From NCBI RefSeq assembly GCF_038967635.1, contig NZ_CP152413.1, forward strand, positions 1 to 64,000: a stretch of DNA of 64,000 bases, given 5' to 3'. The notes below the pieces were generated by a model, which searched no databases, had not been told where the DNA came from, and was given only the letters and a program-made list of their open reading frames with translations. The stretch's first letter is position 1. Every line of letters begins with the position of its first letter. This DNA comes from Bradyrhizobium sp. B124 (GTDB taxonomy: Bacteria > Pseudomonadota > Alphaproteobacteria > Rhizobiales > Xanthobacteraceae). Of this stretch, positions 14,292 to 64,000 are shown piece by piece. The position numbers were made by a program, and so were the translations under genes.

Positions 14292-14299
14292 GAAAAATC

Positions 14300-15667
14300 A
14301 TGGCATTGCTTGATGTCCCAGACTTATCGATGCGCCCCGCCGCCCCACGCGGGACAAAGCGCGCGAACCAGGACAGCGCGCCAAGCGACTCCATTCGCAA
14401 GATTGCGTTGGCAGGATGGCTGATCATCGCCATCTTTTTCGGCGGTATCGGGACCTGGGCGGTGACAGCGCCGCTCAACGGCGCGGTGGTTGCGAACGCG
14501 GTCGTGAAGGTCGATGGCAACCGCAAGAGCCTCCAGCACCTCGATGGCGGGATCGTCAAGGAATTGCATGTGAGGGAAGGTGACAGGGTGCTCGCAGGCG
14601 ATTTGCTGATCGTCCTGGACGAAACCCAGGCTCGCGCCGAACATGAGGTGCTGACGCAGCAATATGCCGTGCTTCGTGCGTCGGAAGTCCGGCTCCTAAC
14701 CGAGCTCGACCATGGCTCCCAACTTGTCATGCCGCCGGATCTGAAGGCGCGCTCTGACGATCCCTATTTCAAGAGCGTCTGGAACGGGCAGCTCAGTCAG
14801 TTTGACACCCGCCGAGCATCGCTCGAAGGGCAACGAAGCGTTGTCCGCGAGAAGATCAATCAGCTGGGGTCCCAGATCGTTGGCGCGGAAGCGCAGGTGA
14901 AGTCGTACACCAACCAGATCGACTCAGTGCGCAAGGAGGCCAAGGACGTCGCTCCGCTCGTCGAGCGAGGGCTAATCGCCCGTCCACGCATCCTGCAGCT
15001 GGAGCGGACCGCGTACGGCCTCGAGGGCCAGATCGCCGATGCAAACGCCAGCATCGCCAAGGCGCGCCAGGCGATTGCGGAACAGGAACAGCAGATCGCG
15101 CAGTTCGACAACGACCGGATGACCGATGTCACCAAGGACTTGCGCGACACCCAAGCCAAGCTGCTGGAGGTTATCCCGAAGGCGATGAACGCCAAGGCGG
15201 TGCTGGGCCGAATGGAAATTCGTGCGCCCTATACCGGACGCGTGGTTGGCCTTAGCGTGTTTTCGATGGGAGGCGTGATCCAACGCGGCGACAAGATCCT
15301 GGACATCGTACCTGATGAGGATTCGCTGACGATCGAAGCGCAGGTGGCGGTCGAAGATATCAGCGACGTCCATCCGGACACGCGCGCCGAAGTTCACCTG
15401 ACGGCCTACAAGCAGCGCATCGTTCCAATCATTCACGGCGACGTCATTCAGATCTCGGCGGACCGTTTGACGGATCCCAAGACCAACAACCCCTACTACA
15501 CGGCCTTCGTTCGGATCGACCAGAACGAATTGGCCGCCATGCCCAACATCCGCCTCTACCCGGGGATGCCGGCAACCGTGATGATCCCAACGGTCCAGCG
15601 AACCGCTTTTGATTACATCGTGGGGCCGCTGGTGATGTCGTTCAATCACGCGTTCCGGCAGAAGTGA
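14300..15667 (+). CDS. prtE: Type I secretion membrane-fusion adaptor (HlyD/PrtE-like)
   Basis: Periplasmic adaptor that links the ABC exporter to an outer-membrane TolC-type channel (no channel gene is in the window). It has 455 residues, the usual PrtE length. A short cytoplasmic N-terminus precedes one membrane helix at about residues 35-56. Next comes a lipoyl/barrel-sandwich half with GGIVKELHVREGDRV, a long coiled-coil hairpin (~110-290) and a second half with MEIRAPYTGRVVGL. ATG at 14300 is preceded by AGGA with good spacing, just after the exporter stop, so the two genes are cotranscribed. Confidence 0.93.
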   Translation: MALLDVPDLSMRPAAPRGTKRANQDSAPSDSIRKIALAGWLIIAIFFGGIGTWAVTAPLNGAVVANAVVKVDGNRKSLQHLDGGIVKELHVREGDRVLAGDLLIVLDETQARAEHEVLTQQYAVLRASEVRLLTELDHGSQLVMPPDLKARSDDPYFKSVWNGQLSQFDTRRASLEGQRSVVREKINQLGSQIVGAEAQVKSYTNQIDSVRKEAKDVAPLVERGLIARPRILQLERTAYGLEGQIADANASIAKARQAIAEQEQQIAQFDNDRMTDVTKDLRDTQAKLLEVIPKAMNAKAVLGRMEIRAPYTGRVVGLSVFSMGGVIQRGDKILDIVPDEDSLTIEAQVAVEDISDVHPDTRAEVHLTAYKQRIVPIIHGDVIQISADRLTDPKTNNPYYTAFVRIDQNELAAMPNIRLYPGMPATVMIPTVQRTAFDYIVGPLVMSFNHAFRQK

Positions 15668-41341: not shown

Positions 41342-42441
41342 TCAAACCGGCAGCAGCTCAGCCGTGCCAACCACGGCCGACGTGGGCGGGCTGTGGATCG
41401 GGCTTGCCGTCCACAAATCATGGGCCAGCCGCAAAGGCTCGATCTTCGAGTTCGCCCACCAAGCCCGTTCGTTGCCGTGTCGATGCAGTTCTTGGTGATG
41501 AGTGCGACACAACGGAACGGTGAACTCGTCGCTGACCTTGCGGCTGAGAGCCCTGGGTTGGGCGAACTTCAAATGGTGGGCATCGCACGGGCTTTTCCGG
41601 CAAACGAGGCAAGGCTGTTCCCGGACAAACTGCAGGTGGGCCTTGCTGCGCTTGCGCACGGGCTCTTTGGGAAAAGCAAGATTGGCCGTCGCATCAATCG
41701 GGAGGGCCTCAACGGACACATCCGTTTGTGAGCAGTCGTTTGTGGCAGGAGGCACCTGCGGCACGCCTGCGAGCTTCTCAGGGTAGGCAGACTAATTGCA
41801 CGGGCATCTGCCTCTAGTAGGGTGTTCTTTTTGGGCAGTCCGACTGAGGCCCAAGCGAGAAGGTCTTTCTCACTCGTTAAGCAATCGAGCTCCGCCAACA
41901 TCTCCTCCCTCAGTTGGACTGATTGATCCAGGCTGAGTAGCGGAGGCCGCTGCGCAGCGCCTTTATTTCCTTTGACGTCGGGCCGATTGCCGGCCCTAAA
42001 CTCGGGGGGCGGCGGGGCCGCTGTCGCGTCCGGCGCATCTAAGTCGTCCTCGCCCGCGATACCCACAAGGGCGAAGAGAGCGTATCGCCGGGCATAAGTG
42101 AGGGCAGCTCCCATCCGGTGTGGAGCATTGATTTCGCTGACGGGACACACCGGCCACTCGAAGACATCCATTCTCCGGACGAATGCGCGAGGACCGTTGT
42201 CAAACGAACAAGGCCCGTCGCTTGGTCGATACCTGTCGTTTGAACCGTTGCGATCTCGTGGCTCCCTAGGCACTTGCGGACCAAATCCAGTCCGCTCGCC
42301 AGAGAGGCGTATCTGAAGCTGCGTGCCTCTTCGCGCGGAAAGACTGCAGGGATGGTCGCAGTCAGCGCCTTTTCGAAGTTGGAAAGTTCGAGTTGGGCCT
42401 TGGCCAGCGATCGCGCCGATCGTTTCGCTAGACTGCTGCAT
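41342..42441 (-). pseudogene. ERF-family annealing protein with HNH C-terminus, frameshifted
   Basis: ERF proteins are phage-type single-strand annealing recombinases. Starting at ATG 42441 ([13 protein letters not shown]), the coding sequence must be pieced from several frames. The ERF core ([46 protein letters not shown]) needs at least two shifts, one early after GAIAG and one after EWMSS. Another leads into CLVCRKSPCDAHHLKF and PLCRTHHQELHR, an HNH-like zinc domain. I recall the fused ERF-HNH form from rhizobia. With three or more frameshifts it is not functional. It overlaps the end of the YqaJ pseudogene. Confidence 0.78.
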
Positions 42442-43280
42442 GACCGGCCTCCTGAATAACATGAAAGCTGATTGAACCGGATTTCGAGCGGGTGGCCCTA
42501 AGCCCGTGGCCAGTCGCTTCTCTTGCGTCTTCTGGCATCAACTTCTTCAGCTCAGATTTTGCGGCATCGTGCTCGAGATGGGCTGAGCGCGTCCGATGAA
42601 AGACCCCGGCAAACTCCGTCCAAGCATTGGAGGCGCTCATATCCACGGTTCGAACAGCTTCAACCCGGGGGCGTGGGGATTCTATGCCGAACAGCTGAGG
42701 GAGCTCGCCGGTCTCGACGCAGCGCCCAGAATTTCTTCTCTGCCGTAAGCAGCAAGTGTTGGTACAGCGGGTCGGCCGGAATGGTCATCTCTACCCATTT
42801 GCCGCCGCCAGTAATGATTGACAGCACCGCCGTTCTTGACGCGGAAACCCACATATTGTGCTGCAATTGTGCGATATGTTTTTCGGCAGCCGCTTCTTCA
42901 GAAAACGACCAAGGCAGCATGAACTTGGCCTCGAATACCGCGCCGGTGGCCTCCACCATGCCGTCGAGGGTTGCCGCCATCCAGCGCTTGACGGGGTGGA
43001 AGACCCGCCGCTGCACCTGAGTTACGACTTGGCCGGTGTTCTTCTCGTACCAGTGACGGTTAAGCTGCTCGGTCGCCGTGCCCAGCTGGACGATCAAGTT
43101 GCTTGATAAATCCTCGGGCTCGATTTCGCCCCGCTTCTCTCGCCAGAGACGGACCAAAGCGGCTTCATCAGCCCCCATGATAATGCGGGCATCAGATCCG
43201 CCTACGAAGCGACGACGATCCGTCTTAAAAGCAATGTGAGATTTTGATTGGGAATCATTGCATTCTCCACGTTTGTACAA
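42428..43280 (-). pseudogene. YqaJ-type phage exonuclease, frameshifted
   Basis: Lambda-exonuclease-fold recombination nuclease, usual partner of an annealing protein. Family marks: GGSDARIIMG, GTATEQLN, ATLDG, FEAKF (E-x-K active site) and QLQHNMWV. The frame opens at TTG 43280 and is intact to KKFW. There an extra G (TGGGCGC against TGGCGC in the 38.25-kb relic) shifts it to an early stop; the true C-terminus continues in another frame to TAG 42428. The break is near residue 186, so the catalytic core might still be made. Confidence 0.78.
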
Positions 43281-46924: not shown

Positions 46925-47494
46925 TCACCGACGAGCGAGATTCAGTCCGTCCTCTACTACCAGACCTGACGGAAGATAAGCGAGCAACTTTCCGTCCGGT
47001 GGACCGTACTTCCAGAAGCGGGCGGCACGATGAAAGCCGTCGATCAATATCGGAAAGCTGAACGAGCGACCAAACGTGATCGGATCTGTGGGAAATTCAT
47101 AGCTCGTTCCTTTGGGAAGTACGCTTCGAGGATCGTCGAGATCGACGCTGGTCGTCGTCATATATTCCTCGAACGAAACAAAACGTCCCTCGCTTTCGGG
47201 ATGCCATACATTCGGTGGCACGAACATCGAGCCCAACCTCGCTCGCCCGACCTTAACGACCTCAAACGAAATTACGCCGGTCAGAAATGCGAGCAGGACC
47301 GGCCGAGCGCACGCGGTACCCAAGGCGAGTTCATACTGCTCATCCTCAGAGAGCTGCTCGAATGAAGTCCCGCTTGATCGCTTCGCGACGAGATGCCCTA
47401 GATCCGCATAGTGCCGGGCGGCCGGAGAATCCGTCAACTCGCTGTAACCCCATCGGGCTTGAACTTCCAACAGGGGTACATTTTGCAGTCTCAA
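46925..47494 (-). CDS. Hypothetical protein downstream of the giant glycosyltransferase
   Basis: 189 residues. TTG 47494 is supported by a strong AAGGGGA ribosome site about 5 bases upstream. The C-terminal part has ILIDGFHRAARFW then LLAYLPSG, reminiscent of the DGxHR motif of ParB/sulfiredoxin-like folds; the middle has VPPNVWHPESEGRFVSFEEY. I do not recognise the family as a whole. It lies 85 bp downstream of the 1894-residue glycosyltransferase on the same strand, so it is probably cotranscribed and may belong to that pathway. Confidence 0.68.
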   Translation of the reverse strand: MRLQNVPLLEVQARWGYSELTDSPAARHYADLGHLVAKRSSGTSFEQLSEDEQYELALGTACARPVLLAFLTGVISFEVVKVGRARLGSMFVPPNVWHPESEGRFVSFEEYMTTTSVDLDDPRSVLPKGTSYEFPTDPITFGRSFSFPILIDGFHRAARFWKYGPPDGKLLAYLPSGLVVEDGLNLARR

Positions 47495-47579
47495 ACCGTT
47501 CCCCTTGCTTCTACAGGTGTCACACGAAACTGTTTTTTGCCTATGCTCAATGGCCGAGCGGCATCGATGGGATTTGCGA

Positions 47580-50500
47580 CTACCTGGTCTTCAAGCGGTC
47601 GCTGACACCTTCGTCGCGCTGGACGACGAGGGGCGGCACACAAACAAAACTGCGCATAGCTTGGTAAGCGGTGTTCATCGCCCCATCGATCCCCTGATCC
47701 TCGATTACGATCGGTGTTCCAGGAAACGGTATGAGCTGCTTCTTGAGAGGCAACACAGCACTCAGGAGGCGGCTCGCTCCGCTTGGGCTAATCGAGTATG
47801 CCTGCGTTCCGAAGGCGTGTCTGAGCCGCTGGGGACGATAAATGGGTCGGCCGTCCGAGGTATCGCTCCAGGTAAAAGGTTCGGTTCGATCGTAAAATCG
47901 AAGTTCCGCAGCTGAAAATCCGAGATCGATCCAAAGAAAAAGCGGATCGTAAACATAGCCCCATAGGATCACGTCCCAGTCGGCGGGAAGTCGTGCCAAC
48001 ACGGCCGATCGATGCTCATCGAACGCGGGATGGCTAAGGGCGTCGTCCTCGAAAACCGTCATAGGTTGATCCTGAGACGCGGCATTTTGCCAAAGTTGGA
48101 TGTGAGAGAGTGCGCAACCCAAGGCTCCGGCACTGTAATCAAGTCCGAGGGCAATTAGCCCCTGTCTTTCGAGTTGCGAGCGATCTAGCTTGCTCCCATC
48201 GATCGCGGAGACTCGTTTAAATCTGCCTAGGTGGGCATTGCGGGTTCTGAACTTTTCCCAGCGACTGGTGCTTTGGTCCAAGTTGAGTACACAAATCTCA
48301 TCCGTTGATTGCGTGGCCTTCTTGGGTCGGCCAGGAACGCTTGCTTCCTGCGCGAGCAAGAACGAACCGAGGCCATCTGCAATGATCGAGCGCGCCACGA
48401 CCTCTGCGCCGACCGAATTTAGGTGAAATTCATCCTGATAAATATCGGAGCGGTTGGCCAGCTTCGCTTCTAAATCGCACAAGGTGTGCCCAGCCGCACG
48501 AGCGGCCGCGCGAGTCGTCTCGTTGACGGATGCGCGAGTTCTGGTCACTGCTGGGTTGACCCCTTCGCCTTGCAAATGGGGAATGGTCGCGAACCAAAGC
48601 TCGATGCCAAAGGATCGAGCGGCGAGCGAAAAGAGATCTAGCAGCCGACGACGATCCGTGAAGTTCGGAGCGGGAAGCAGACTATGGTCCCGCCACGAGT
48701 TGTTTGTGTTGAGGTCAACGATCGGCTCGAGCCAGCAGTCATGACTCCAGAAGCTAGCCCCCAGGCTCGCCACATCGACGTCGACAATTCCCGTCATCAG
48801 AATGACGAGGTCGGGCTTGAGCGGTATGATCTTGTTGAGAAACAGATTCAACATGTGGAGGGTTGTCGCTCCACTGTAGCCACCGTTTCTTACTATGACA
48901 TCTAGAGCACTCTCACTCCGCAGAATCGTCTCGAGTTTGGCGCAAAACCGTTCATCGGGGTCGAGATACATGCCCTCGACCACGCTGTCGCCGAGAACGA
49001 TCACTGTTCGAGCCGCCGTATCCGAAGACTTGGATCCGCGAATGAAGCCGAGGGCGTCGGTCTCCATGAGATATGGCTTCCGGACGAGTGTATGCTTTCG
49101 GCTTTCGACGTACTCATCTGAAGGCGTGTGAGACAAGGATACGTTCGCTGGATATTCCTTCAATCGTATCGTCCTTTTTCCATTGCCAGCCGGAACAGTC
49201 TCCTTTCCCGGTGTCTCCTGTGAGGGTTTTGCTACAAGTTCTCCAGCGATCAGCGGTCGAATTGCCTCCCCATCGGATGCGAACGTCAACCATCCGTAAA
49301 TCTCGCGAGTGTCCAACGTTTGCGAAATGCCCGCGCGACGCGCGCTATGGGAAAATATGACATATTCATACCGGCCCGAACCATCATCGTAGGTCAGTTG
49401 CGGTATGGCGTCTGCGCGAACCAGATATGTGCAATGGACGACAGGTACCTCGTAGAGCCCTGGCGAGGAGCGGCTCAGGATAATGTTGTATTCATCGCTG
49501 GGTAGAAAATATCCGTTCGCGTCGATCTTTTGATGGTAGTTTGAGTACAGCGGTCTGTCCCCGTCTACGCATTTGAGTAGCGGCGCTACGATCGGACGAT
49601 TCAAATCTACGAGGCTTCGTAGGGTGAGGGGGCGCAGATAATTGTCGACGTCGACCACGAGATAGTAGTCGCACCCCAGGGCCAGAGTCCGGTTCATGCT
49701 GTGCTGGCGAATTCGACCCAGCACGGAGAAGCGAGTGGCATTCCACTCGTGGTCGGCAAAGTCCTGGACGCGTTCCGATACGTCGCTGTCGTCAAACTCT
49801 ACGTGCGAGTATCGCGGTCCGACACGTTTGAGCCAGTCTCGGAGAATTTGGCCGGTGTCATCTTGATTGTTGTTGGTCCGGATGTGAATCGCAATTCGAT
49901 CCGGCGGATAGTCGAGCGCCTCAATGCATTCCAGGAATAATGGCAGATGGCCAGCCTTGTTTTTAGCGAGAATTGCAATCAGCACCTTGGGAAGAAGACG
50001 CGCTGCGCCGGGCTGCCTGGGCACATCCGCAGGCTTAACCTTTTCGGAAATCTGGTCTTTCGCAAAACGCAGATTGTCTTCTACGCGTTTCCTCAGACCT
50101 TCATCGATTGATGAAATTTGAAGGATGCGAGTGCAGGCGTCGATGCAGCCTTGATAATCGCCAGACCAATAGGCATTAACCGAGAATTCGTCGAGGAGCC
50201 CGAATTCATAAATCCATTCTTCGGCGAACAGCGCTCCAATAGGCATCGGCAAATCTATGCCACGGCGAGCGAAGTCAGCTCCCTGCTTGTTGCGGCCCTT
50301 TAGACGGCAATAACGGCTGGCTCCGTGTAACGCTTCAGCTCTCGCGGGCTGTGAGTCGCTGGCTCGCTGATAAGCCGCAATGACGTCCTCTTCAGGATGG
50401 GCAAGAGCCTCCTTAAGCCGCGCCGCACCATAAAGGGACATGAAGACCTCTTCCTGCCAGAAGCCCATTTCAGCCCGGGCCAGGTAGAAGGTGAGTGCTT

Positions 50501-53264
50501 TTTCCGGCTCATTGCAGTCGCGATAGCTCTGAGCAAGGTAGAACGTATAACGAGAGCGGAGGAACGGGTCCGTCTCGTTCTGCAGCGCGCTCTCTAAAAG
50601 CGCAGCATCTTTGCGGTATTTCTTGGGATCTTGGCTGCGCGCGCCGCCGCCACCGATCTGGATCGCGAAGCCGGAGGCGGTCTCCCGACCGTGGGCATCG
50701 GCCGGCGCCTCCACGAACTCGTGCAGGACGCCTCGGAAATAGAATTCTTTTCGATTGCTGCATATGTGCGGTCGATAGTGACGGATGCCATTGTGGTTGA
50801 TGGTCACGTCATAGAGGTCTGCGGTCATGCCGGACTTGAAGGCAGCGACATCAAATTTGGGCTCGATGGTGAGGGCGTCATCGGCGTCGACGATGAGGGC
50901 GTAGTCGACGTCCGGGTTACGGCGCAGGCAAGCGAGCGCATGCGATCGATTGTATGCGAAATCCCGCCAAGGCTCGTCGATGACTTCGCCTGCCAGTTTA
51001 TTTCTGTCGAGCCACTGTCTTATAATGTCCTGTGTGCCGTCGGTTGATCCTGTGTCTTCGATCAGCACATAGTCGATCAATGGTCGAACGCTGTCGAGAC
51101 AACGGACGATGACCGCCGCCTCGTTCTTGACGATCATGCATAGGCCGATCGACTTTCCCTTTCGCGGTGACAATCCAGACTCCTTAACCACGGGCTCTTT
51201 ATTTCTGCGTGCGTTCTCGGACGGCGGGGGAGGCGGTGCAGCGGAAACCGCGGCCAACGACGTCGGATCACTCTCAAGTGCGGCACGGACCTCGGCCGCA
51301 TCGATCGAGGCGATCCAGGACTCACTGTCGGCGACCCCGTAGGATACGAGCAAGCGACAGCCGTCGGGATGCCAAGCCAGACCAGCCGCGAATTCGACCC
51401 CTTTGTCCTTGAAATAGAACGGGCGACTAAGCCGGCGCAGACCATTATCGCGATCGAACCAGACAAAGCGATGCTGATAGAACCGTCGACCGCTCTGCCA
51501 CTGAACTTCATGAACGAGCGCGAGCCAGCCATCGTCAAATTCGACGAGTTGCGTTCCGCCTCGGAAATGCTCGACGGCAAAGTTAGCAACACTTTCTGAG
51601 ACGATATCGCCCCTGTCGCTTACGATCCTGGTCGGGTCGCACGAGTAGACGAAACGCAGACTTGCACCGTTGGCCTGTGGCATCCAGTTCTTTTCGTGCC
51701 GTCGAGGACCCTTAGGACGAACCACGCGCCAGTCAGTAAGCCGAATTTCGGAGCTGCTTTGGTGTTCAATCCGGGCGATTAACTGCTCGCACCAACCTTG
51801 AGCGTTCAGCTCGCGCACGCATGCGCTGCCCCACAATGAACCATTCCAACTGAACAGACGGATATCCTCAAGTCCTTGCACGTCTTCGAATTGGGCTTTT
51901 GGGAAGTCGGCAGGCGGCAGGATCTCGGCCGCCGTTTGCACTCCAAGATGGGTGTTGAGCCGTAGCAAGAAATTGCGCGTCCGAATGGGCGTATTGTCGT
52001 CCGTTTCATATGAGCCGTCTTCGAGCAAGCGAAAATTCACCGCGCGCTGCGCGAGATAGAGGTCATCTCCATGAAGCGAAACGGAAGGATTGGTCAGCCG
52101 GTAGCCTTGGGACGCATCGTAATCCACCGGCCGGGCAGAAAAAGATGCAAAGAGCGTTTGCGCTGGCCGCAGGTAAAAAAACAGGTTCGTCCGGGCGAGG
52201 TCGCGGGGACCGTCCGGAATTGCTCGGTTAAGCGCTAGGCCATTGCAGATCGAGAATCCCCGATTCCAGCGAGCCGCGTCCTGACTGTAGTTTGCAGCAA
52301 TCGAAAATTCCTCACGTAGACCGGTCTGATAAACATCGCTTTCGATGAAAAGGATGTCGTTCTCAGGGGTTGTTATCGAAAGTCCACGCTCGGAAAAAGG
52401 GAGGCTCGTCTCATGCATCCCGCGTTCCCGATAGTACCGTGCGAGATCGTACAGCGGCTCAGCGCGTGCCGGCCGTTGCTTGAACGCTTCAAGCGCCTTG
52501 CCGACAAACCCGTCTTCATCACCTAGGTCTCGCAGGCAGCGCGCGTGCTGCAGCCGTGCCATCCACGCCTCTTCGTCCCAGCCTCCCATATCCGCGCGCT
52601 TGGCAAAGGTAGCAGCGGCCTCGGCGTGTCGGCCGGCATCTCGATAGGACCACGCGAGGTAGAACCAGTACCGGGTGTTGTCGGGCTCGCTTTCGAGCGC
52701 AGCTTCGAGCAGTCGAATATCCCGCTCCGATTTGTCGCCGCGGTTCGCTCCACTGGCGTGATCGAGATACCAGGCGCCCTGCAATTCCGTGACCTCTCCG
52801 GGGACGTCGACGTATTCGTGCGTGACTCCAACATATCTCGAGCCGCTGTCACGCCGCACCAATCGCGTATTCCAGTAGCTCAATCCCCCCGACGCGCGCT
52901 GCAAGAGGCGGTAACCGGGGCCGGTAAGGGTTTTGCGAAAGTCGGCGTCGTCGACAATGAACTCCATATCTGCGTCGTTGAACAGGACGTAGTCGAAATC
53001 AAGCTTTGAGGCGCAGGCACGATCAAGCGCGTTGTTTCGGGCCTGCCCGAAATCGTGGAAGGGAATTGTATGGAGTTCGCCCGGAAGATTGCGCCGGGCA
53101 AAGAATGTCTTGATGAAGTCTTGGGTGCCGTCGGACGAGCCGGTATCGCAGATGACCCAACAATTGATGTGGTCAGCGACTGCCGCCAGGCAGCGCTCGA
53201 GATTTGCCATCTCGTTCTTAACGATCATGTTCAGGCAAATGCGTTTGTTTTCTACCACCGCCAA
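47580..53264 (-). CDS. Giant multidomain glycosyltransferase with COLGALT-like halves
   Basis: 1894 residues; no signal or membrane helix, so probably cytoplasmic. Domains by position: GT2 domain 1 (~8-170; MIVKNE, DTGSSDGTQ, DxD at D97/D99) with TPR-like helices (~180-295); a beta-propeller-like segment (~370-690); GT2 domain 2 (~705-870; MIVKNE, D793-A-D795) with TPR-like helices (~920-1080); a GT-A domain (~1093-1325) resembling the N-terminal half of procollagen galactosyltransferases (LIAILAKNKAGHLPLFLE, DVDN at 1205-1208, VPVVHCTYLV); an SGNH hydrolase-like domain (~1420-1630; GDS with S1427, D1611-x-x-H1614); and a GT25 domain (~1656-1894; ICVLNLDQSTSRW, GALGCALSHIQLW, FEDD at 1738-1741). 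TTG 53264 starts the frame; a GTG two codons on is possible. Divergent from the collagen-like gene. COLGALT similarity is from memory. Confidence 0.85.
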   Translation of the reverse strand: MAVVENKRICLNMIVKNEMANLERCLAAVADHINCWVICDTGSSDGTQDFIKTFFARRNLPGELHTIPFHDFGQARNNALDRACASKLDFDYVLFNDADMEFIVDDADFRKTLTGPGYRLLQRASGGLSYWNTRLVRRDSGSRYVGVTHEYVDVPGEVTELQGAWYLDHASGANRGDKSERDIRLLEAALESEPDNTRYWFYLAWSYRDAGRHAEAAATFAKRADMGGWDEEAWMARLQHARCLRDLGDEDGFVGKALEAFKQRPARAEPLYDLARYYRERGMHETSLPFSERGLSITTPENDILFIESDVYQTGLREEFSIAANYSQDAARWNRGFSICNGLALNRAIPDGPRDLARTNLFFYLRPAQTLFASFSARPVDYDASQGYRLTNPSVSLHGDDLYLAQRAVNFRLLEDGSYETDDNTPIRTRNFLLRLNTHLGVQTAAEILPPADFPKAQFEDVQGLEDIRLFSWNGSLWGSACVRELNAQGWCEQLIARIEHQSSSEIRLTDWRVVRPKGPRRHEKNWMPQANGASLRFVYSCDPTRIVSDRGDIVSESVANFAVEHFRGGTQLVEFDDGWLALVHEVQWQSGRRFYQHRFVWFDRDNGLRRLSRPFYFKDKGVEFAAGLAWHPDGCRLLVSYGVADSESWIASIDAAEVRAALESDPTSLAAVSAAPPPPPSENARRNKEPVVKESGLSPRKGKSIGLCMIVKNEAAVIVRCLDSVRPLIDYVLIEDTGSTDGTQDIIRQWLDRNKLAGEVIDEPWRDFAYNRSHALACLRRNPDVDYALIVDADDALTIEPKFDVAAFKSGMTADLYDVTINHNGIRHYRPHICSNRKEFYFRGVLHEFVEAPADAHGRETASGFAIQIGGGGARSQDPKKYRKDAALLESALQNETDPFLRSRYTFYLAQSYRDCNEPEKALTFYLARAEMGFWQEEVFMSLYGAARLKEALAHPEEDVIAAYQRASDSQPARAEALHGASRYCRLKGRNKQGADFARRGIDLPMPIGALFAEEWIYEFGLLDEFSVNAYWSGDYQGCIDACTRILQISSIDEGLRKRVEDNLRFAKDQISEKVKPADVPRQPGAARLLPKVLIAILAKNKAGHLPLFLECIEALDYPPDRIAIHIRTNNNQDDTGQILRDWLKRVGPRYSHVEFDDSDVSERVQDFADHEWNATRFSVLGRIRQHSMNRTLALGCDYYLVVDVDNYLRPLTLRSLVDLNRPIVAPLLKCVDGDRPLYSNYHQKIDANGYFLPSDEYNIILSRSSPGLYEVPVVHCTYLVRADAIPQLTYDDGSGRYEYVIFSHSARRAGISQTLDTREIYGWLTFASDGEAIRPLIAGELVAKPSQETPGKETVPAGNGKRTIRLKEYPANVSLSHTPSDEYVESRKHTLVRKPYLMETDALGFIRGSKSSDTAARTVIVLGDSVVEGMYLDPDERFCAKLETILRSESALDVIVRNGGYSGATTLHMLNLFLNKIIPLKPDLVILMTGIVDVDVASLGASFWSHDCWLEPIVDLNTNNSWRDHSLLPAPNFTDRRRLLDLFSLAARSFGIELWFATIPHLQGEGVNPAVTRTRASVNETTRAAARAAGHTLCDLEAKLANRSDIYQDEFHLNSVGAEVVARSIIADGLGSFLLAQEASVPGRPKKATQSTDEICVLNLDQSTSRWEKFRTRNAHLGRFKRVSAIDGSKLDRSQLERQGLIALGLDYSAGALGCALSHIQLWQNAASQDQPMTVFEDDALSHPAFDEHRSAVLARLPADWDVILWGYVYDPLFLWIDLGFSAAELRFYDRTEPFTWSDTSDGRPIYRPQRLRHAFGTQAYSISPSGASRLLSAVLPLKKQLIPFPGTPIVIEDQGIDGAMNTAYQAMRSFVCVPPLVVQRDEGVSDRLKTR

Positions 53265-53764
53265 ACTTTTTTGGTTGCTGCAAGAAATTGCGAAAAGCTT
53301 AAATTAGATGAAAATTGACCTGCGGGACGCGCGAGGGTGACGCGGATCTTTGGTTCCATCAGCGGACCTCACTGAAAGCGCTAACAACTTAGCTGAAAAT
53401 GTTCGGGCAGCAAATTCAGCAGGTTGTCGGCCTTAATGCGAAATCAACTCGCTGCTTATTGGAACTCGTCATGAAATAATTTGACTTAAGTCGTGTTAGA
53501 TTCTGAATTTTCTTGCGCTGTTTTTCCCAATCTGCTTATGCTTAAAGAATAATTAATTTTTCGCGGTCCGTCTGCGCTTCAGGCGGGGGTATTTGGAATG
53601 ACGTTCAATCTTGGAATGTGGTCGTCGGTTCGTTGCTGATGGCCTAAGTGAATCTAGCGAACAACCACCCAAGGTTGAATCACTGTTTTGTAGTTGGTTC
53701 GAGGGCGATCTCCGGACGTACGTGCTCCGGGTGTCGACCTCGTCCGTACGTTGGGTGGTATCGT
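53265..53764. other. AT-rich divergent promoter region
   Basis: About 500 bp between the leftward glycosyltransferase and the rightward collagen cluster. Bases ~53440-53570 are markedly AT-rich for this genome, as expected for promoters. The frame upstream of ATG 53765 stays open to 53648 but its sequence is not protein-like. Confidence 0.55.
53481..53509 (+). promoter_or_regulatory. Weak candidate promoter for the collagen cluster
   Basis: TTGACT, then 17 bases, then TGAATT. The -35 is good and the -10 is poor, within the AT-rich stretch and pointing towards the collagen genes. It is a guess from sequence only. Confidence 0.25.
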
Positions 53765-54166
53765 ATGGTTAAGTCAGGTCGAGCCGACAAGTCGGCGATT
53801 TCCCACAGCATTCCGTCCATTGCACCTCCGATAACGGCGCTAGGCGTTGCCAAGTATGCAGGGCTTCTCTCTGCGGGCATCTCTAACGAGATCCTGGTGA
53901 CCGGATCGTTGCCGCGAGGCGAGACCACCCAAAACGTCACCTACTTCGTCGTCGACCAAGCTACGAAGACGATCGTTTCCCAGGTCATTCTGCCGGATGC
54001 GTCCGATCGCTTTAACGCGGTTGAGATGCGAGTGAAGGTCGGGCGCTATGTGAGCGCCTACGACATCGGCACCTTTAACGCGAACGGAGAGTTTACGGTT
54101 TGCCCGTTCCTGTCCGTCCGCAGTTCTCTGAATCTATCACCACCTGGCGGACCGAGCAGCGGATGA
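53765..54166 (+). CDS. Small protein sharing the pre-collagen domain
   Basis: 133 residues from ATG 53765, with GGGTGG ~9 bases upstream; the frame can extend to GTG 53648. The segment NVTYFVVDQATKTIVSQVILPD, together with a later VGRYVSAYD and TFNANGEF, aligns by eye with residues ~170-270 of the collagen-like protein ([38 protein letters not shown]). It is therefore a free-standing copy of the domain lying between the DUF4347-type region and the collagen repeat. It may be an accessory or capping subunit; function unknown. Confidence 0.62.
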   Translation: MVKSGRADKSAISHSIPSIAPPITALGVAKYAGLLSAGISNEILVTGSLPRGETTQNVTYFVVDQATKTIVSQVILPDASDRFNAVEMRVKVGRYVSAYDIGTFNANGEFTVCPFLSVRSSLNLSPPGGPSSG

Positions 54167-54254
54167 TTTAACCGCGCTACGGGGAAGTCTGCATTTTGAT
54201 TTTGGGTCGAGGCGGCACTCCGCGATCGGCGCGATGTGAATTGTTGTGAGCTAA

Positions 54255-59213
<4,959 letters not shown>

Positions 59214-59239
59214 GGTCGGCGGCTGACGAAGTGACGAAC

Positions 59240-59274
59240 GAGGAAGCCATGGATCGCGCATCCCTGGCTTCCTC
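59240..59274 (+). promoter_or_regulatory. Strong stem-loop after the collagen gene
   Basis: GAGGAAGCCA and TGGCTTCCTC form a 10-bp stem, extended past one mismatch by GGAT/ATCC around a 5-base loop. It begins 26 bases after the stop and has no T run. It may stabilise the collagen mRNA or reduce read-through into the protease and exporter genes. Confidence 0.55.
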
Positions 59275-59298
59275 TCCGATCAAGGCCCGGAATAGCCG

Positions 59299-60186
59299 AT
59301 GGTTGGCACTACCATGATCGACCGCCGACGCTTCCTCGCTCTCGTGGGCAGTGCGGCGGCTCTCTTGGTCGAGAGCAGAAGGTCTTTCGGGCGCGAGATC
59401 CCTCCGACAGAAAGCCTCCTGAGTGCTCCGATCGAATTGTCGGGCGATTGGCATGCAGCACCGAACGACGCGGTGATGCGTGTGCTCACCCGGATCCGCG
59501 AAATCGATCTGTCAGGACTGCGATTGCTGTCGGATCGGCAACCCAAGAAGCTACGTATCGAAAATCAGGGTGAAGGTGCGCCCGCGATCTGGCTGCATAG
59601 CGATCAACCTGACATGGCATCCATCATCGTGAACGTCGGCTATGCCGATTGGTGTAGACTCGCCTATCAATTCGGTCACGAGCTTGGGCATGTCTTGAGC
59701 AACAGCTGGCAGCTCTCCGCCAAGCCGCAACCTCCGACACAATGGCTCGAGGAGGTACTGGTGGAGACATTTTCGGTTCGCGGTCTGCGGCTGCTCGCCG
59801 GCAGTTGGGAGAGATCACCGCCATTTGCGGGAGACGCAGGTTTCGCGCGGGCCATTCGTCAATATGGCTCAGCGCTGCTGGACAAGTTCAAAGCGGACGA
59901 TCTTTCACCGTCTGAGTGGTTCCGTACAAATCGGGCGAAGCTGGAAGTTAGATCTGGAAAGGAAGTTCCGTGGGGACCCGCGGTGGTCGGCATCCTGCAG
60001 ATCTACGAGGACGTCAAAGCAGGGAAACCAACCTGTCTCGATGATTTGGGAGCCTTGAACCGCTGGCCGGAGCGGACATCCGTTCCGATCGAGCGTTACC
60101 TGGATTTGTGGACGGAAAGCTGTGTTGCGATTGGTTCCACCGGCGAATTGCCGGCCCGGCTACGACAACTGTTCGCGATCGCGTGA
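59299..60186 (+). CDS. Tat-signal HExxH zincin-like protein
   Basis: 295 residues. The N-terminus has a twin-arginine type signal (DRRRFLALVGSAAALLV), predicting folded export to the periplasm. H127-E-L-G-H131 within FGHELGHVLSN is a zinc-protease HExxH motif; acidic residues in WLEEVLVE (~149-156) are candidates for the third ligand. The rest (SEWFRTNRAKLE, VVGILQIYEDV) is unfamiliar. It lies between the collagen-like gene and its presumed exporter, so processing of the exported collagen is a reasonable inference. ATG 59314 is an alternative start giving a more standard Tat signal. Confidence 0.7.
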   Translation: MVGTTMIDRRRFLALVGSAAALLVESRRSFGREIPPTESLLSAPIELSGDWHAAPNDAVMRVLTRIREIDLSGLRLLSDRQPKKLRIENQGEGAPAIWLHSDQPDMASIIVNVGYADWCRLAYQFGHELGHVLSNSWQLSAKPQPPTQWLEEVLVETFSVRGLRLLAGSWERSPPFAGDAGFARAIRQYGSALLDKFKADDLSPSEWFRTNRAKLEVRSGKEVPWGPAVVGILQIYEDVKAGKPTCLDDLGALNRWPERTSVPIERYLDLWTESCVAIGSTGELPARLRQLFAIA

Positions 60187-60317
60187 GATGTCGGTGGGCA
60201 GGGTCGCAATCGCATCAACCACGTGCAGGGATTTCGGTGTCGCGGCCTGTCGAATTCGTCTAGATTGCCGCGAGATAGTGAAGAATTTTATTCTGTTATT
60301 GATTTTGGAGGGTGACC

Positions 60318-63152
60318 GTGGACCCGCATAGGGGAGCCTTTGGGGAGCCTGGGCCCGACAAGTATGTCCGCTTGCTGCGGAAGGCCATTGACGACCTTCA
60401 TGCGAGCGATGAGGCGTCGCGCAATGCGCTTTACAGCCGGGCACGCACCTTGTTGGACAGCCGGCTAGCCGCCAGAAAAGATCTATCGCAGGCCGAAATC
60501 GACAATGAGAAGTTTGATTTCGACGAGGCGATGTGGCGCGTCGAGGGGCAGGTCCACCTCTGCGCAACGGCACCGGTCAGAACTCAGTCGGGTGTGCACG
60601 GCGACCTGCACATCATTCCTGCGCGGGAAAGCGACAGATCGCAGCTGGTGGCATCACCCGACGTCGTGCATCCGCGTGTCGCCAAAGGGCCGACCAAATC
60701 GCGACGTGCTTCCTCGCCGACGGCGAAAGCGCAATTCACAAGGCGATGGTCCGGTCAGTTGCGCGCATCCCTGGATCTCGCCCATCGGGGCTCCGAATTA
60801 TTGACTGATCTCGGTGTCCGCGCGCGTGTCTCCGTGCAACGGGCCCGCGCTGAGTTTGCCGCAAAGGCTCAATCCAAACGGCAGGCCGTCTCAGCCGAGC
60901 GGAAGTCAAGCGATCTTGCTTCGCAGCAGGGGCATTCGATCGACCGCCTGGAGGCGCAACGCAGCCCGCAATATCAGGCGCGATTGCAAGCGGTTGTCCA
61001 GGTCGCGCGTCATCACGGCGTCGAGCTCGATGTCGCCGAGTTGAGAACTGGTGAATCCGATATCTATCCATCGGCTGCGGCGCTCTCGGCCTGGGCGCAG
61101 AATGCGGGCCTATGGTCCCGCGCGGTGCGAACCAGCTGGCGCCTATTGCTCGGGATGAGCGAAGGCGGGCCCGTCATCTTACTGTTTGCCGACGGTAGCG
61201 CCGCGCTCATGGTTGGTGCGAACGCCGATCAGAATATCGTTATGCTGAAGGATCCAGGCGCCTCCGCGGACGGAGCCGTACCCGTCGACGAGTTGCGCCT
61301 TTCCCAGGTGTGGAACGGTGAGGCCATCCTGGTGCGCGCGAGCCGAAGCCGCGCCGCTGCCGACGCGCCGTTTGACCTGCGCTGGCTCTTCGATCTCGTT
61401 CTGCACGAAAGGCGCTTGTTGCGGGACATCGGAATCGCCTCGCTCACCATCAGCTTCCTGACCATTTTCCCACCGCTGCTGGTGATGACGATGGTGAACA
61501 AGGTCCTGCAATTCCACAGTACGTCCACCTTGGTCATGCTTGCCGCCGTCATGGCGGTCGTAATCGTCTATGAAGCCCTCTTGGGGCACGCGCGACGTCA
61601 TATCATTGCAGTCGTCGGCGCCAGGCTTGACGCAAAACTCAATCTGCACGTCTTCAATCGGCTGCTTCGCCTGCCGCTCGATTACTTCGAGCGTCATCCT
61701 GCGGGTGAAACGATGTACCGTATCGCGCAGGTCTATCGCGTTCGCGAATTTCTGACCGGCCGCCTTCTGACGACCTTTCTCGACCTGATGACGCTTTGCG
61801 TGCTGCTCCCGTTCCTGTTCTATCTCAGCCCGATCCTGGCGAGCATTGTGCTCGGCTGTGCCGGCGCAATCTTGCTGATCATCATCGCATTCCTGAAGCC
61901 GATGCGAGAGATGTACGGACGGGTCACCACGGCCGAGACGTGGAAGTCGGCAACGCTCGGCGAGACGATCGTGGGTATCAAGACGGTCAAGGCTTTGGCT
62001 CTCGAGCCACAACGTCGCGCCCTTTGGGACGAGCGGATTGCAGAGGCCGGAAAATGGCGATTGGAATTTGGCCGTCTGTCGAACTGGCCGCAGACTCTGG
62101 TTACTCCGATCGAGCGCTTTATGGTGCTCGGCACGACCATGCTTGGTGCGTATCTCGCGATGCACGACTCGTCAGGCTACATGGTGGGCGGATTGTTCGC
62201 GTTCCTGATGCTGAGCGCGCGGGTTGCCCAGCCACTCGTTGGGATGGCGCGGTTGATCGAGGACTATGAGGAGGTCGGGGCAGCGATCGGAGAGGCAAGC
62301 TCCGTGCTCAATCGGCCAGCCGAGAGCAGCGCGCGAGCGGCGGGCTTGAGACCGAAGTTCGCAGGCGAGATAGCCTTCCAGGACGTCAGCTTCACGTACC
62401 TCAACACAACCGTCCCAGCGCTCGACAGGGTCAGCTTCTCGGTTCCGGCCGGTTCGACGTTAGGGATCGTCGGTCGCAGCGGATCGGGCAAGTCGACGGT
62501 TACGCGCCTACTGCAGGGAATCAATCGTGATTATAAGGGATTTGTGAAGATCGATGGCGCCGACCTGCGCGATGTTGATCTGCGTCACCTTCGGCAGAGC
62601 CTCGGTGTCGTCTTGCAGGAGAACTTCCTGTTTCGTGGCTCCATCAGAGATAACATTATCGCTGGTCGACCGGGCCTGACGCTGTCGGATGCTGTCTATG
62701 CGGCAAGGCTCGCTGGCGCTGAGGAATTCATCGAGCGGATGCCCAATGGCTTCGAGACTTACATCGAGGAAGGATCTCCAAACCTGTCTGGCGGACAACG
62801 GCAGCGGTTGGCGATCGCGCGAGCGCTCATCACGGATCCGCGCATCCTGGTGCTGGACGAAGCGACCAGTGCGCTCGATCCCGAAAGCGAAGCCGTCGTG
62901 ACAGGCAACCTCGAACGGATCGCGAGCGGACGGACGATGATCATCGTTTCGCACCGGCTGTCGTCGTTGGTTGGCTGCGATCAGATTTTGGTTCTAGATC
63001 AGGGTAAGATCGTTGATTGCGGCGCGCACAATGTTTTGGTCGAGCGTTGCGCGATCTATCGACAGCTTTGGAGTCAGCAAAACCGCCATAGCGAACCGAC
63101 GCGCCAGTCCGTTACTCCGAAGCTGGTCTCGGGCGGAGCGAACGAACCATGA
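60318..63152 (+). CDS. Type I secretion ABC exporter with C39-like domain
   Basis: 944 residues. An unusual N-terminal extension (~1-205), helical and with a basic, low-complexity part, precedes a C39-like domain (~210-345) that lacks the catalytic Cys and His, as in HlyB/LapB-type exporters of unprocessed substrates. The membrane domain follows (~355-640) and then the nucleotide-binding domain: Walker A GRSGSGKST near 718, signature LSGGQRQRLAIARA, Walker B ILVLDEATSALD, switch VSHRLSSL. GTG 60318 was chosen because GGAGG ends 6 bases upstream; GTG 60312 is too close to it. It probably exports the collagen-like protein. Its stop overlaps the HlyD gene (ATGA). Confidence 0.92.
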   Translation: MDPHRGAFGEPGPDKYVRLLRKAIDDLHASDEASRNALYSRARTLLDSRLAARKDLSQAEIDNEKFDFDEAMWRVEGQVHLCATAPVRTQSGVHGDLHIIPARESDRSQLVASPDVVHPRVAKGPTKSRRASSPTAKAQFTRRWSGQLRASLDLAHRGSELLTDLGVRARVSVQRARAEFAAKAQSKRQAVSAERKSSDLASQQGHSIDRLEAQRSPQYQARLQAVVQVARHHGVELDVAELRTGESDIYPSAAALSAWAQNAGLWSRAVRTSWRLLLGMSEGGPVILLFADGSAALMVGANADQNIVMLKDPGASADGAVPVDELRLSQVWNGEAILVRASRSRAAADAPFDLRWLFDLVLHERRLLRDIGIASLTISFLTIFPPLLVMTMVNKVLQFHSTSTLVMLAAVMAVVIVYEALLGHARRHIIAVVGARLDAKLNLHVFNRLLRLPLDYFERHPAGETMYRIAQVYRVREFLTGRLLTTFLDLMTLCVLLPFLFYLSPILASIVLGCAGAILLIIIAFLKPMREMYGRVTTAETWKSATLGETIVGIKTVKALALEPQRRALWDERIAEAGKWRLEFGRLSNWPQTLVTPIERFMVLGTTMLGAYLAMHDSSGYMVGGLFAFLMLSARVAQPLVGMARLIEDYEEVGAAIGEASSVLNRPAESSARAAGLRPKFAGEIAFQDVSFTYLNTTVPALDRVSFSVPAGSTLGIVGRSGSGKSTVTRLLQGINRDYKGFVKIDGADLRDVDLRHLRQSLGVVLQENFLFRGSIRDNIIAGRPGLTLSDAVYAARLAGAEEFIERMPNGFETYIEEGSPNLSGGQRQRLAIARALITDPRILVLDEATSALDPESEAVVTGNLERIASGRTMIIVSHRLSSLVGCDQILVLDQGKIVDCGAHNVLVERCAIYRQLWSQQNRHSEPTRQSVTPKLVSGGANEP

Positions 63153-64000
63153 GCGAAGTCCAGGCCAATTTGCTGCCACTGCCGTTCAAGTCGAAGAAGA
63201 GCGACCCGACGTTGCCGGTGATTCTTGAGTTCCAGCAACCGTCAACGGCGATCATCAACGCTCCTGTACCCCGCGCGGCCCGTGGCACGATCTGGATCGT
63301 CTCCAGCATGGTCGCTGCTCTGGTCCTTGTTGCGGGAGTATTACCTGTCGATCAGGTCATCACTGCGCGCGGCCTGGTGGTCTCGCAATCTTCCACCATC
63401 CTCGTACAGCCGCTGGAAACGGCAATCGTTCGTTCGATTGACGTAAGCGAAGGCCAGCATGTGCGGGCGGGCGATGTGCTGGCGCGTCTCGATCCGACCT
63501 TCGCCGAAGCAGATCGAATGGCCCTCGAGGGGCAGCTGAACAGCCTTGAGCCCGAACTCGCGCGTCTGCGTGCCGAGGCAGATGGCCAGCCGTTTACATA
63601 CTCCAGCAGCGATCCAAACTGGGTCCTGCAGGCTTCGATTTTCAGTCATCGCAAAGCGCAGTTCGACTCCAAGATCGAAAACTATGAGCACCGACTTCAG
63701 GAACTGAACTCCGTAATAGCGAGATCGGAATCCGATGCCGTCGGCTACCGCGAGCGCCTCGGCGTGGCTCAGAGCATCGAGGATATGCGCAAGCAGTTGG
63801 AGGCGACCCAAACCGGTAGCCGGCTGAACTCGCTGATCGCCAAGGATACACGCGTTGAAATGCAGCGGTCGCTTTCCAACGCGGTCGCTACCGGAGAGGG
63901 CGCGAAGCGCGATCAGTCGGCGCTTGCTTCGGACCGCGACGCATACGTCCGCGGCTGGAAGGCGGAAGCTTCGCAAAAGTTGCAGGAGATCAGTGTCAAG
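63149..64000 (+). CDS. HlyD-family adaptor, cut by the window's right edge
   Basis: At least 284 residues are encoded, with no stop before the edge. ATG 63149 overlaps the exporter stop (ATGA). A ~45-residue cytoplasmic segment leads to one membrane helix (~46-67, IWIVSSMVAALVLVAGVL), then the first lipoyl half (VRSIDVSEGQHVRAGDVLARLDP) and the start of a coiled-coil hairpin (LNSLEPELARLRAEA). This is the periplasmic adaptor that pairs with the ABC exporter upstream. Confidence 0.92.
   Translation, partial: MSEVQANLLPLPFKSKKSDPTLPVILEFQQPSTAIINAPVPRAARGTIWIVSSMVAALVLVAGVLPVDQVITARGLVVSQSSTILVQPLETAIVRSIDVSEGQHVRAGDVLARLDPTFAEADRMALEGQLNSLEPELARLRAEADGQPFTYSSSDPNWVLQASIFSHRKAQFDSKIENYEHRLQELNSVIARSESDAVGYRERLGVAQSIEDMRKQLEATQTGSRLNSLIAKDTRVEMQRSLSNAVATGEGAKRDQSALASDRDAYVRGWKAEASQKLQEISVK

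Follow-up and report, generated by a model that had tools for sequence, protein, structure and literature searches.

A Gly-X-Thr collagen locus in Bradyrhizobium sp. B124 with a predicted collagen-modifying glycosyltransferase and a candidate type I exporter

How might a bacterium decorate, stabilise and export a collagen that is nearly free of proline? The question is raised by bases 1-64000 of the single 9,169,800-base contig NZ_CP152413.1 of Bradyrhizobium sp. B124 (the window, meaning the whole 64,000-base stretch analysed), where a 1647-amino-acid (aa) collagen, a divergently oriented 1894-aa multidomain glycosyltransferase (GT) and the genes of a HlyB/HlyD-type exporter lie together. The answer favoured here is that this locus probably serves to make a surface collagen, glycosylate it and export it, with the GT2-TPR part of the enzyme starting the glycan on the threonine at the Y position of the triplets. 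A preliminary description of this DNA had proposed a dedicated collagen-glycosylation and export locus, and the architecture, the linkage, and the way in which the GT goes together with Thr at Y across genomes all support that proposal. Judged by domain assignment, the constant partner of Gly-X-Thr collagen is a predicted GT2-TPR module, with the architecture of SgtA from Clostridioides difficile. The part resembling the human collagen galactosyltransferase COLGALT1, which includes a GT25 domain, is a clade-specific addition, present in three of nine loci of the genus. Open reading frames, a motif search, and Pfam and NCBIfam scans of the window's proteins reproduced the coordinates, motifs and gene order first described for the collagen, GT and exporter, and the two central genes are laid out as follows.

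54270..59213, plus strand: 1647-aa DUF4347-collagen (open reading frame, Pfam)
54288..54779, plus strand: DUF4347 domain (Pfam, E=1e-36)
55104..58904, plus strand: Gly-X-Thr repeat region of 404 triplets (triplet count)
58905..59213, plus strand: C-terminal tail, likely secretion signal, conserved in three genus relatives
47580..53264, minus strand: 1894-aa multidomain glycosyltransferase, divergent from the collagen (Pfam, phmmer against PDB, relatives, substitution rates)
52725..53264, minus strand: GT2 domain a, residues 1-180, SunS/GmaR-like (phmmer; profile A1, built from 13 GT2-TPR-propeller cores)
52233..52724, minus strand: TPR region, residues about 181-344 (Pfam TPR, model helices)
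51300..52142, minus strand: beta-propeller resembling GH130 mannosyl-phosphorylases, residues about 375-655 (AlphaFold model, Foldseek)
50010..51167, minus strand: GT2 domain b and TPR-like region, residues 700-1085 (Pfam GT2; NCBIfam SunS; profile A5, built from the GT2b-COLGALT module)
49284..50000, minus strand: GT domain like the COLGALT N-domain, residues 1089-1327, with DVD at 1205-1207 (phmmer, motifs, profile A5)
48387..49013, minus strand: SGNH hydrolase domain, residues 1418-1626, with GDS at 1425-1427 and Asp and His in DEFH at 1611-1614 (Pfam, Foldseek)
47595..48299, minus strand: GT25 domain, residues 1656-1890, with FEDD at 1738-1741 and DWD at 1762-1764 (Pfam, phmmer)

The collagen has the long Gly-X-Y run of bacterial collagen-like proteins (404 triplets; Pfam Collagen, E=6e-173). 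Thr occupies Y in 98.3% of the triplets, and X is Ala in 67%, Ser in 21% and Asp in 7%; Pro is found in 2% of triplets, and Lys once. All four ACN codons serve the Y-position Thr (ACC 174, ACG 137, ACA 50, ACT 36), hence Thr is held at the level of the protein, not of the DNA.

Co-occurrence within the genus was followed in a sample of 195 genomes, in which the GT query scored two candidates per genome and the repeat query up to 18, meaning weak or short copies can be missed. A strong GT match (at least 356 bits) was present in nine genomes, with the next genome reaching 112 bits through GT25 only. A 163-aa piece of the repeat gave matches at least 74% identical in the same nine, the rest being 33-41% identical among the matches listed. 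The pairing of GT and Gly-X-Thr repeat, nine of nine against none of 186, gives a Fisher p of 1e-15 that is not corrected for shared descent; pure descent is a less likely explanation of it, because the later GT domains differ between loci. The DUF4347-containing front of the collagen gave six strong matches (at least 187 bits), all within these nine genomes. In one of them, G042 (G-numbers denote sampled genomes, L-numbers the stretches fetched around loci), the repeat match sits on a small contig of its own; the contig with the GT (L050) carries 12 triplets at its edge. In genome searches within the genus and beyond it the two genes thus co-occur across relatives, the outcome of a check that the preliminary description had named and that could have refuted it.

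Collagen in general is not the signal, because PF01391 is common in the genus (181 of 195 genomes). Twenty control collagens, hand-picked from the listed PF01391 matches (mainly long frames and one short, two of them from the GT-carrying G070), had Thr at 0-7% of Y positions, which were mostly Pro, Arg or Gln. Around them, in 12.7-19.9 kb each, no match to the GT or HlyD query was found, and a weak 26-27% ABC match appeared in two. The GT-linked loci yielded 24 Gly-X-Y rows of at least 12 triplets (at most two per locus, some loci having been fetched twice; L038 and L056 gave none), with Thr at 88-100% of Y positions. It is this contrast that counts: Thr fills 88-100% of Y positions in GT-linked collagens and 0-7% in the rest of the collagens sampled from the genus. 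The notion that any collagen will do was rejected on the 20 selected collagens, which lack both Thr at Y and a neighbouring GT. A separate class of Bradyrhizobium collagens was also seen (L057-L064), of about 425-620 aa, with Glu at X and Arg, Gln or Pro at Y, and without GT or HlyD neighbours.

Does the pairing hold outside the genus? It turns up again in loci of Mesorhizobium, of Rhodomicrobium type, of Blastochloris and elsewhere, each locus being counted once per count where the sets overlap (L044 is G069, L045 and L091 are G941, L046 is G797, L050 is G042, L053 is G044 and L055 is G077). In a single scan of genome contigs, 12 of 13 named loci had a Gly-X-Y open reading frame with at least 88% Thr at Y (six are Mesorhizobium, and four of the 13 belong to genomes already in the genus sample); the Methylobacterium locus L056 has ten triplets with 60% Thr at Y, at a contig edge. 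Three further genomes in an order-level sample of 397, one of them G797, carried the full GT2-TPR-propeller core, and all three had a collagen with 91-96% Thr at Y. Shorter GT2-TPR reading frames without the COLGALT part lie near Gly-X-Thr collagen at L083 (92%; the same collagen as L082), L085 (100%) and L088 (94%). More distantly, a 399-aa GT2-TPR gene directly follows a collagen with 67% Thr at Y in the betaproteobacterium Cupriavidus metallidurans CH34, and in Methylobacterium aquaticum a GT2-TPR gene adjoins a collagen with 50% Thr and 46% Gln at Y.

The module that joins GT2-TPR to the COLGALT-like domain also keeps this company. An enzyme of about 650-690 aa with both parts is found in other families, one copy being 97% identical to a Rhodomicrobium vannielii protein. 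A collagen with 92-100% Thr at Y lies in the same stretch, adjoining to about 7 kb off, in 11 of 15 module loci (the window, L034, L035, L080, L081, L082, L086, L091, L113, L114 and L118; L113, L114 and L118 are one species). Gly-X-Thr collagen was found in none of 16 control loci (L097-L112), hand-picked for weaker GT2 or propeller matches in the order sample, two of which (L097, L101) have a weak COLGALT-domain match of 45-48 bits. With L118 left out, the comparison of 10 of 14 module loci with 0 of 16 controls gives a Fisher p of 3e-5. Nor was such a collagen found in L092 and L093, which have the GT2b module without the COLGALT part, or in L094-L096, which have the propeller only; these five enter neither count. 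Plasmids of Mesorhizobium ciceri encode proteins of 932-933 aa in which GT2-TPR, COLGALT N-domain and GT25 follow without SGNH, divergent from a collagen with 98-100% Thr at Y. At L114 this collagen is followed by ABC, HlyD and TPR genes, and residues 404-804 of the enzyme match residues 11-428 of human COLGALT1 in a single contiguous alignment (E=1.1e-41). A fourth Mesorhizobium plasmid match (H3) was left out of the counts.

Wider searches gave 7,680 relatives of the module profile among 7,999 scored database proteins. A class-level sample of 385 genomes contained the COLGALT-domain fragment in the window only (1 of 385); profile A5 matched in 65 of the 385, and among the matches listed the window alone covers the module, the others being partial and weak. 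No relative was found in viral contigs. On a Citrobacter plasmid (L116) a GT2-type gene lies directly after an autotransporter gene, with equal-scoring matches on Enterobacter and E. coli plasmids; this is possibly the same principle, a surface protein with its own glycosyltransferase encoded next to it, but exported by a different route.

What kind of enzyme is this partner? Pfam recognises two GT2 stretches, TPR, Anp1, SGNH (Lipase_GDSL_2) and GT25 in the 1894-aa protein. Two relatives are 85% and 83% identical over the full length, and the ratio of nonsynonymous to synonymous substitution rates (dN/dS) against them is 0.12 and 0.15 for the entire gene. By domain it is 0.08-0.20, and 0.16-0.29 in a linker; every domain of the enzyme is under purifying selection. 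For the N-terminal part, phmmer against PDB matches SunS to residues 9-204 (E=6e-5), and profile A1 finds designed TPR proteins, SunS (4e-8) and GmaR (7e-6). Foldseek with a model of residues 2-700 returns the SunS/ThuS peptide glycosyltransferases (E about 1e-10) and GH130 phosphorylase propellers (4kmi, E=1e-8; template modelling (TM) score 0.5-0.6 by target); a profile search of PDB gave no GH130 sequence match to the propeller region. GT2 domain b has a partial NCBIfam SunS match (E=7e-16), below its cut-off.

For the C-terminal part, human COLGALT1 is the best phmmer match to the GT in PDB (E=5.1e-37; stretches 1089-1327, the best, and 1652-1768), and LH3, whose glycosyltransferase domain is grouped with COLGALT1 among the nearest known enzymes, comes next with a match to the first COLGALT-like domain (E=3.5e-13). 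Profile A5 finds COLGALT1 (6e-41), LH3 (3e-20), GmaR (3e-18), SunS (2e-11) and mimivirus R699 (2.5e-6). In a Foldseek search with a model of residues 1085-1894 the top places go to eight COLGALT1 chains (E 2e-18 to 1e-15), followed by acetylxylan-esterase-type SGNH proteins and GT25 galactosyltransferases. Both COLGALT halves, which the preliminary description placed at residues 1093-1325 and 1656-1894, are matched by sequence, and the Foldseek E-values agree, although the TM scores are low; by these matches the COLGALT-like half is real. Published work is drawn on here, as below, for the passages that bear on each point. In human COLGALT1 (GLT25D1), D166-D168 and D461-D463 are reported as essential and D585-D587 as not, and an RMQV stretch is found in the active enzymes (PMC3244457). 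DVD 1205-1207 and DWD 1762-1764 of the window GT align with the two essential motifs. The RMQV stretch after the second DxD is not present in the GT, where the sequence reads DWDVILWGYVYDPLFLW.

COLGALT1 (PDB 9evj, 9u7j) is thus like the window enzyme in having an N-terminal GT-A domain followed by GT25, in the same order and with its essential DxD motifs matched, and in having collagen as its partner. The bacterial enzyme differs in its fusion to GT2-TPR, in the missing RMQV, in the SGNH domain that interrupts the two halves (contiguous in M. ciceri), and in an acceptor predicted to be Thr, not hydroxylysine. One could argue from the likeness that the COLGALT-like and GT25 domains, not GT2-TPR, start the glycan on Thr, and that the enzyme would then be, strictly speaking, a bacterial collagen galactosyltransferase. 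COLGALT1 being the best PDB match, the conservation of both essential DxD motifs, and the Gly-X-Thr collagen near 11 of 15 module loci all speak for this. However, the COLGALT-like, SGNH and GT25 part is present in three genus loci only (the window, G069 and G151), and the other six have no match to COLGALT or GT25 in the fetched stretch, yet keep both the collagen and the GT2-TPR enzyme. The missing RMQV and the single Lys in 404 triplets, with which a hydroxylysine acceptor is not expected, also speak against it, and we consider this order of events unlikely. The COLGALT-like half as a universal collagen partner was rejected on the same count of three loci in nine. Hydroxylysine as acceptor was likewise rejected on the single Lys, no search for a hydroxylase having been made. 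The earlier claim that the large enzyme modifies Thr before export gains comparative support from the co-occurrence; what needs revising is the role given to the COLGALT-like half, since the constant partner is GT2-TPR.

The nearest known system points the same way. SgtA of C. difficile is a 358-aa GT-A and TPR enzyme encoded directly upstream of the collagen gene bclA3, and in vitro it adds beta-O-linked N-acetylglucosamine (GlcNAc) to Thr of collagen-repeat peptides (PMC7157674). Compared by its described architecture, it shares with the window enzyme the GT-A (GT2) and TPR parts, the position beside a bacterial collagen, and an acceptor Thr within collagen repeats, shown for SgtA and proposed for the window GT. 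It differs in having one GT domain, where the window enzyme has 1894 aa with further GT, SGNH and propeller domains. Likewise BclA3 is a Gram-positive spore-surface protein, described without mention of a type I exporter, whereas the window collagen is a near-perfect Gly-X-Thr repeat beside an exporter of the type I kind. The statement that no described system has this combination was therefore wrong in principle, SgtA and BclA3 being a collagen and its neighbouring Thr O-glycosyltransferase (PMC7157674). Dedicated bacterial collagen O-glycosylation is itself already known, and what is unusual here is the animal-type COLGALT module and the size. SunS and ThuS, glycocin S-glycosyltransferases, and GmaR, a flagellin O-GlcNAc transferase (PMC9638930), similarly have a GT2-type domain followed by TPR or TPR-like repeats and modify peptides or proteins; as described, they have other acceptors and are without the extra domains. 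A literature search turned up no paper on this locus type, which is weak evidence of absence, as subscription journals lay mostly outside its coverage.

How would such a locus work? Firstly, one or both cytosolic GT2-TPR parts would put the first sugar on the Y-position Thr of Gly-X-Thr, as SgtA does on BclA3; GT2-TPR is proposed as the starter because of its SgtA-like architecture, the co-occurrence and the acceptor match. Secondly, the other domains would extend or trim the glycan, the COLGALT-like GT-A and GT25 domains probably by hexose or galactose transfer, and the SGNH esterase-like domain and GH130-like propeller may also act on it. Thirdly, the unfolded glycosylated chain would leave through the adjacent HlyB/HlyD-type exporter by its conserved C-terminus, a route suggested by gene order. 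Glycosylation before export would fit the modification of animal collagen chains, which is impossible once the trimer has formed (review PMC8968730). Fourthly, the chains would trimerise outside, where the Thr sugar may stand in for proline or hydroxyproline and stabilise a nearly proline-free triple helix. The precedent for such a stabiliser is an animal protein, the cuticle collagen of Riftia, whose galactosylated Thr has been linked to thermal stability, with no enzyme named for it (cited in a sponge collagen paper, PMC10141479).

Two other uses of the enzyme have to be weighed. The GT locus might make a surface polysaccharide or a lipopolysaccharide (LPS) decoration, and simply be carried along with the two as part of an island of cell-surface genes, the collagen and the exporter being its neighbours there. 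GT25 enzymes do serve LPS synthesis according to the Pfam description, loci differ in their accessory GT, FkbM and other domains, and the Erf/RecE-like genes nearby point to an island. The GT2-TPR fold, however, is that of protein-modifying enzymes, and a polysaccharide role would not lead one to expect that the GT goes together with Thr at Y; we find this account very improbable. Alternatively, the GT could modify mainly another surface protein, such as flagellin or the giant RTX protein encoded at 2-12361, and not the collagen. GmaR sets a precedent by modifying flagellin (PMC9638930), and there is a second ABC/HlyD pair in the window, but the tight linkage to Gly-X-Thr collagen across genera, and the lack of any strong GT match in the 186 sampled genus genomes without such a collagen, leave this with hardly any probability.

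Several points nevertheless weigh against a collagen-glycosylating locus. Activity, glycan, secretion and triple helix are all predictions from sequence, and the variation of accessory domains between loci means that no single sugar chemistry is implied. The model of residues 1085-1894 has low confidence (mean predicted local distance difference test score, pLDDT, 58.6) and superposes poorly on COLGALT1 (TM 0.25-0.28, root-mean-square deviation about 28-30); that of residues 2-700 is middling (mean pLDDT 68.2; TM to SunS 0.25-0.31 by target). To our knowledge, there is no glycosylated type I substrate of such a kind. Of the module loci, one is without collagen (L090), L089 has a Gly-rich protein that is not collagen, L087 has a mixed collagen (49% Thr at Y) and L084 ends at a contig edge; the module also has thousands of relatives, and this comparison covers the neighbourhoods of very few of them. 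Thr richness alone proves nothing, because bacterial collagens at large often have Thr at Y (31.6% overall, 48.3% in Gram-positives; PMC8968730).

If the glycosylation reading is right, bacteria, symbiotic soil species among them, stabilise collagen without hydroxyproline by a sugar on Thr, and some of the enzyme domains that they use for it are of the animal COLGALT type. We tentatively extend it, though with less confidence than doubt, to a collagen-sugar system of the Proteobacteria's own, in which proline-poor Gly-X-Thr collagens would be stabilised and functionalised by dense Thr O-glycans added before type I export, through an enzyme in which a starter of the SgtA type is joined to a two-domain extender of the COLGALT type. 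The pair of COLGALT N-domain and GT25 would then have been coupled to collagen in bacteria independently of animals, or else animal COLGALT and the LH3 glycosyltransferase domain would share ancestry with, or have been acquired from, this bacterial lineage of collagen-modifying enzymes. Two questions become open to experiment: is a sugar on Thr enough to keep a triple helix without proline together, and what was the origin of the glycosyltransferase domains that act on animal collagen? The locus would also supply a set of enzymes for recombinant glyco-collagens.

The remaining genes of the locus are as follows.

46925..47494, minus strand: 189-aa protein beside the GT, no family assigned; copies 87-88% identical lie beside the full-length GT relatives at L034 and L035
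53648..54166, plus strand: conserved small protein next to the collagen; its true start probably lies near 53765 (alignments)
59299..60186, plus strand: 295-aa HExxH protein with an RRRFL start and a WLEE helix (open reading frame, motifs)
60312..63152, plus strand: 946-aa predicted ABC exporter of the HlyB type, extended at its N-terminus by a further region (Pfam; TIGR01846 E=2e-160, below cut-off)
63149..64000, plus strand: HlyD-type adaptor, continuing beyond the window (Pfam HlyD_3)

The ABC protein of the predicted exporter scores 535.7 bits against TIGR01846 (cut-off 725.55), and a relative is annotated as a peptidase domain-containing ABC transporter. The HlyD gene adjoins it, as in type I secretion, beginning at 63149 with a 4-base overlap; the full protein of 465 aa (L002:8150-9547) matches Pfam HlyD_3 at 52.9 bits (cut-off 22.2, E=7e-14), and a 62% identical relative is annotated as a HlyD type I adaptor. 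L080-L082 and L084 again have exporter, HlyD, Sel1 and HExxH genes, and L086 has exporter, HlyD and Sel1 genes. The tail of the collagen, 41-45% identical in L036/L055, L037/L053 and L041, is likely the secretion signal. In L036/L055 (G077, Bradyrhizobium viridifuturi) a long and intact GT has next to it a collagen frame broken into two short parts, which may reflect decay of the copy or misassembly.

At the other end of the collagen, the DUF4347 domain has no PDB relative in our search (best E=0.28), and its His-Gly and Trp-Ser-Cys are invariant in all 24 aligned copies, several of which come from one locus or species. It bears a resemblance to clan CD peptidases, and the invariant His and Cys could be the catalytic pair of a self-processing protease, which makes the domain a weak candidate for a processing role. 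The small protein beside the collagen, first described as sharing the pre-collagen domain, does so in a single 27-residue match at E=2e-4, the weakest item of the original account; its family is conserved in 12 aligned loci, all adjoining such collagens. The 189-aa protein has no Pfam or NCBIfam match. Neither has the HExxH protein, whose best PDB match (E=0.36) is not convincing; HExxH, a Trp and two Glu are invariant in all 14 aligned members of its family, the window copy reading HELGH. Its RRRFL start is presumably of the twin-arginine translocation (Tat) type by consensus, and export is predicted from this motif. From co-occurrence, one may guess, weakly, at a processing or maturation enzyme of the collagen. 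A second HExxH paralogue (L002:12707-13501) is 46% identical and without the RRRFL start, and G165 (L041) likewise has two. Downstream of HlyD lie genes for a Sel1-repeat protein and an FkbM-domain protein (Pfam), then this second HExxH gene on the minus strand.

An Erf-like match lies at 41569-42462, and Erf/HNH and RecE-like genes at L002:14395-16414; these matches on both sides of the collagen locus suggest a genomic island. The giant DUF4347/RTX adhesin apparently spans the contig seam, with 4119 aa open at the window start and 3092 aa open at the contig end (L003:10526-19801). Its gene (2-12361) is followed by the second ABC and HlyD pair, at 12558-15667, placing two systems of the type I kind within about 50 kb. 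Bases 1-5280 consist of 12.9 copies of a 408-base repeat with a 100% match, and because the copies match so fully their number is perhaps a matter of assembly.

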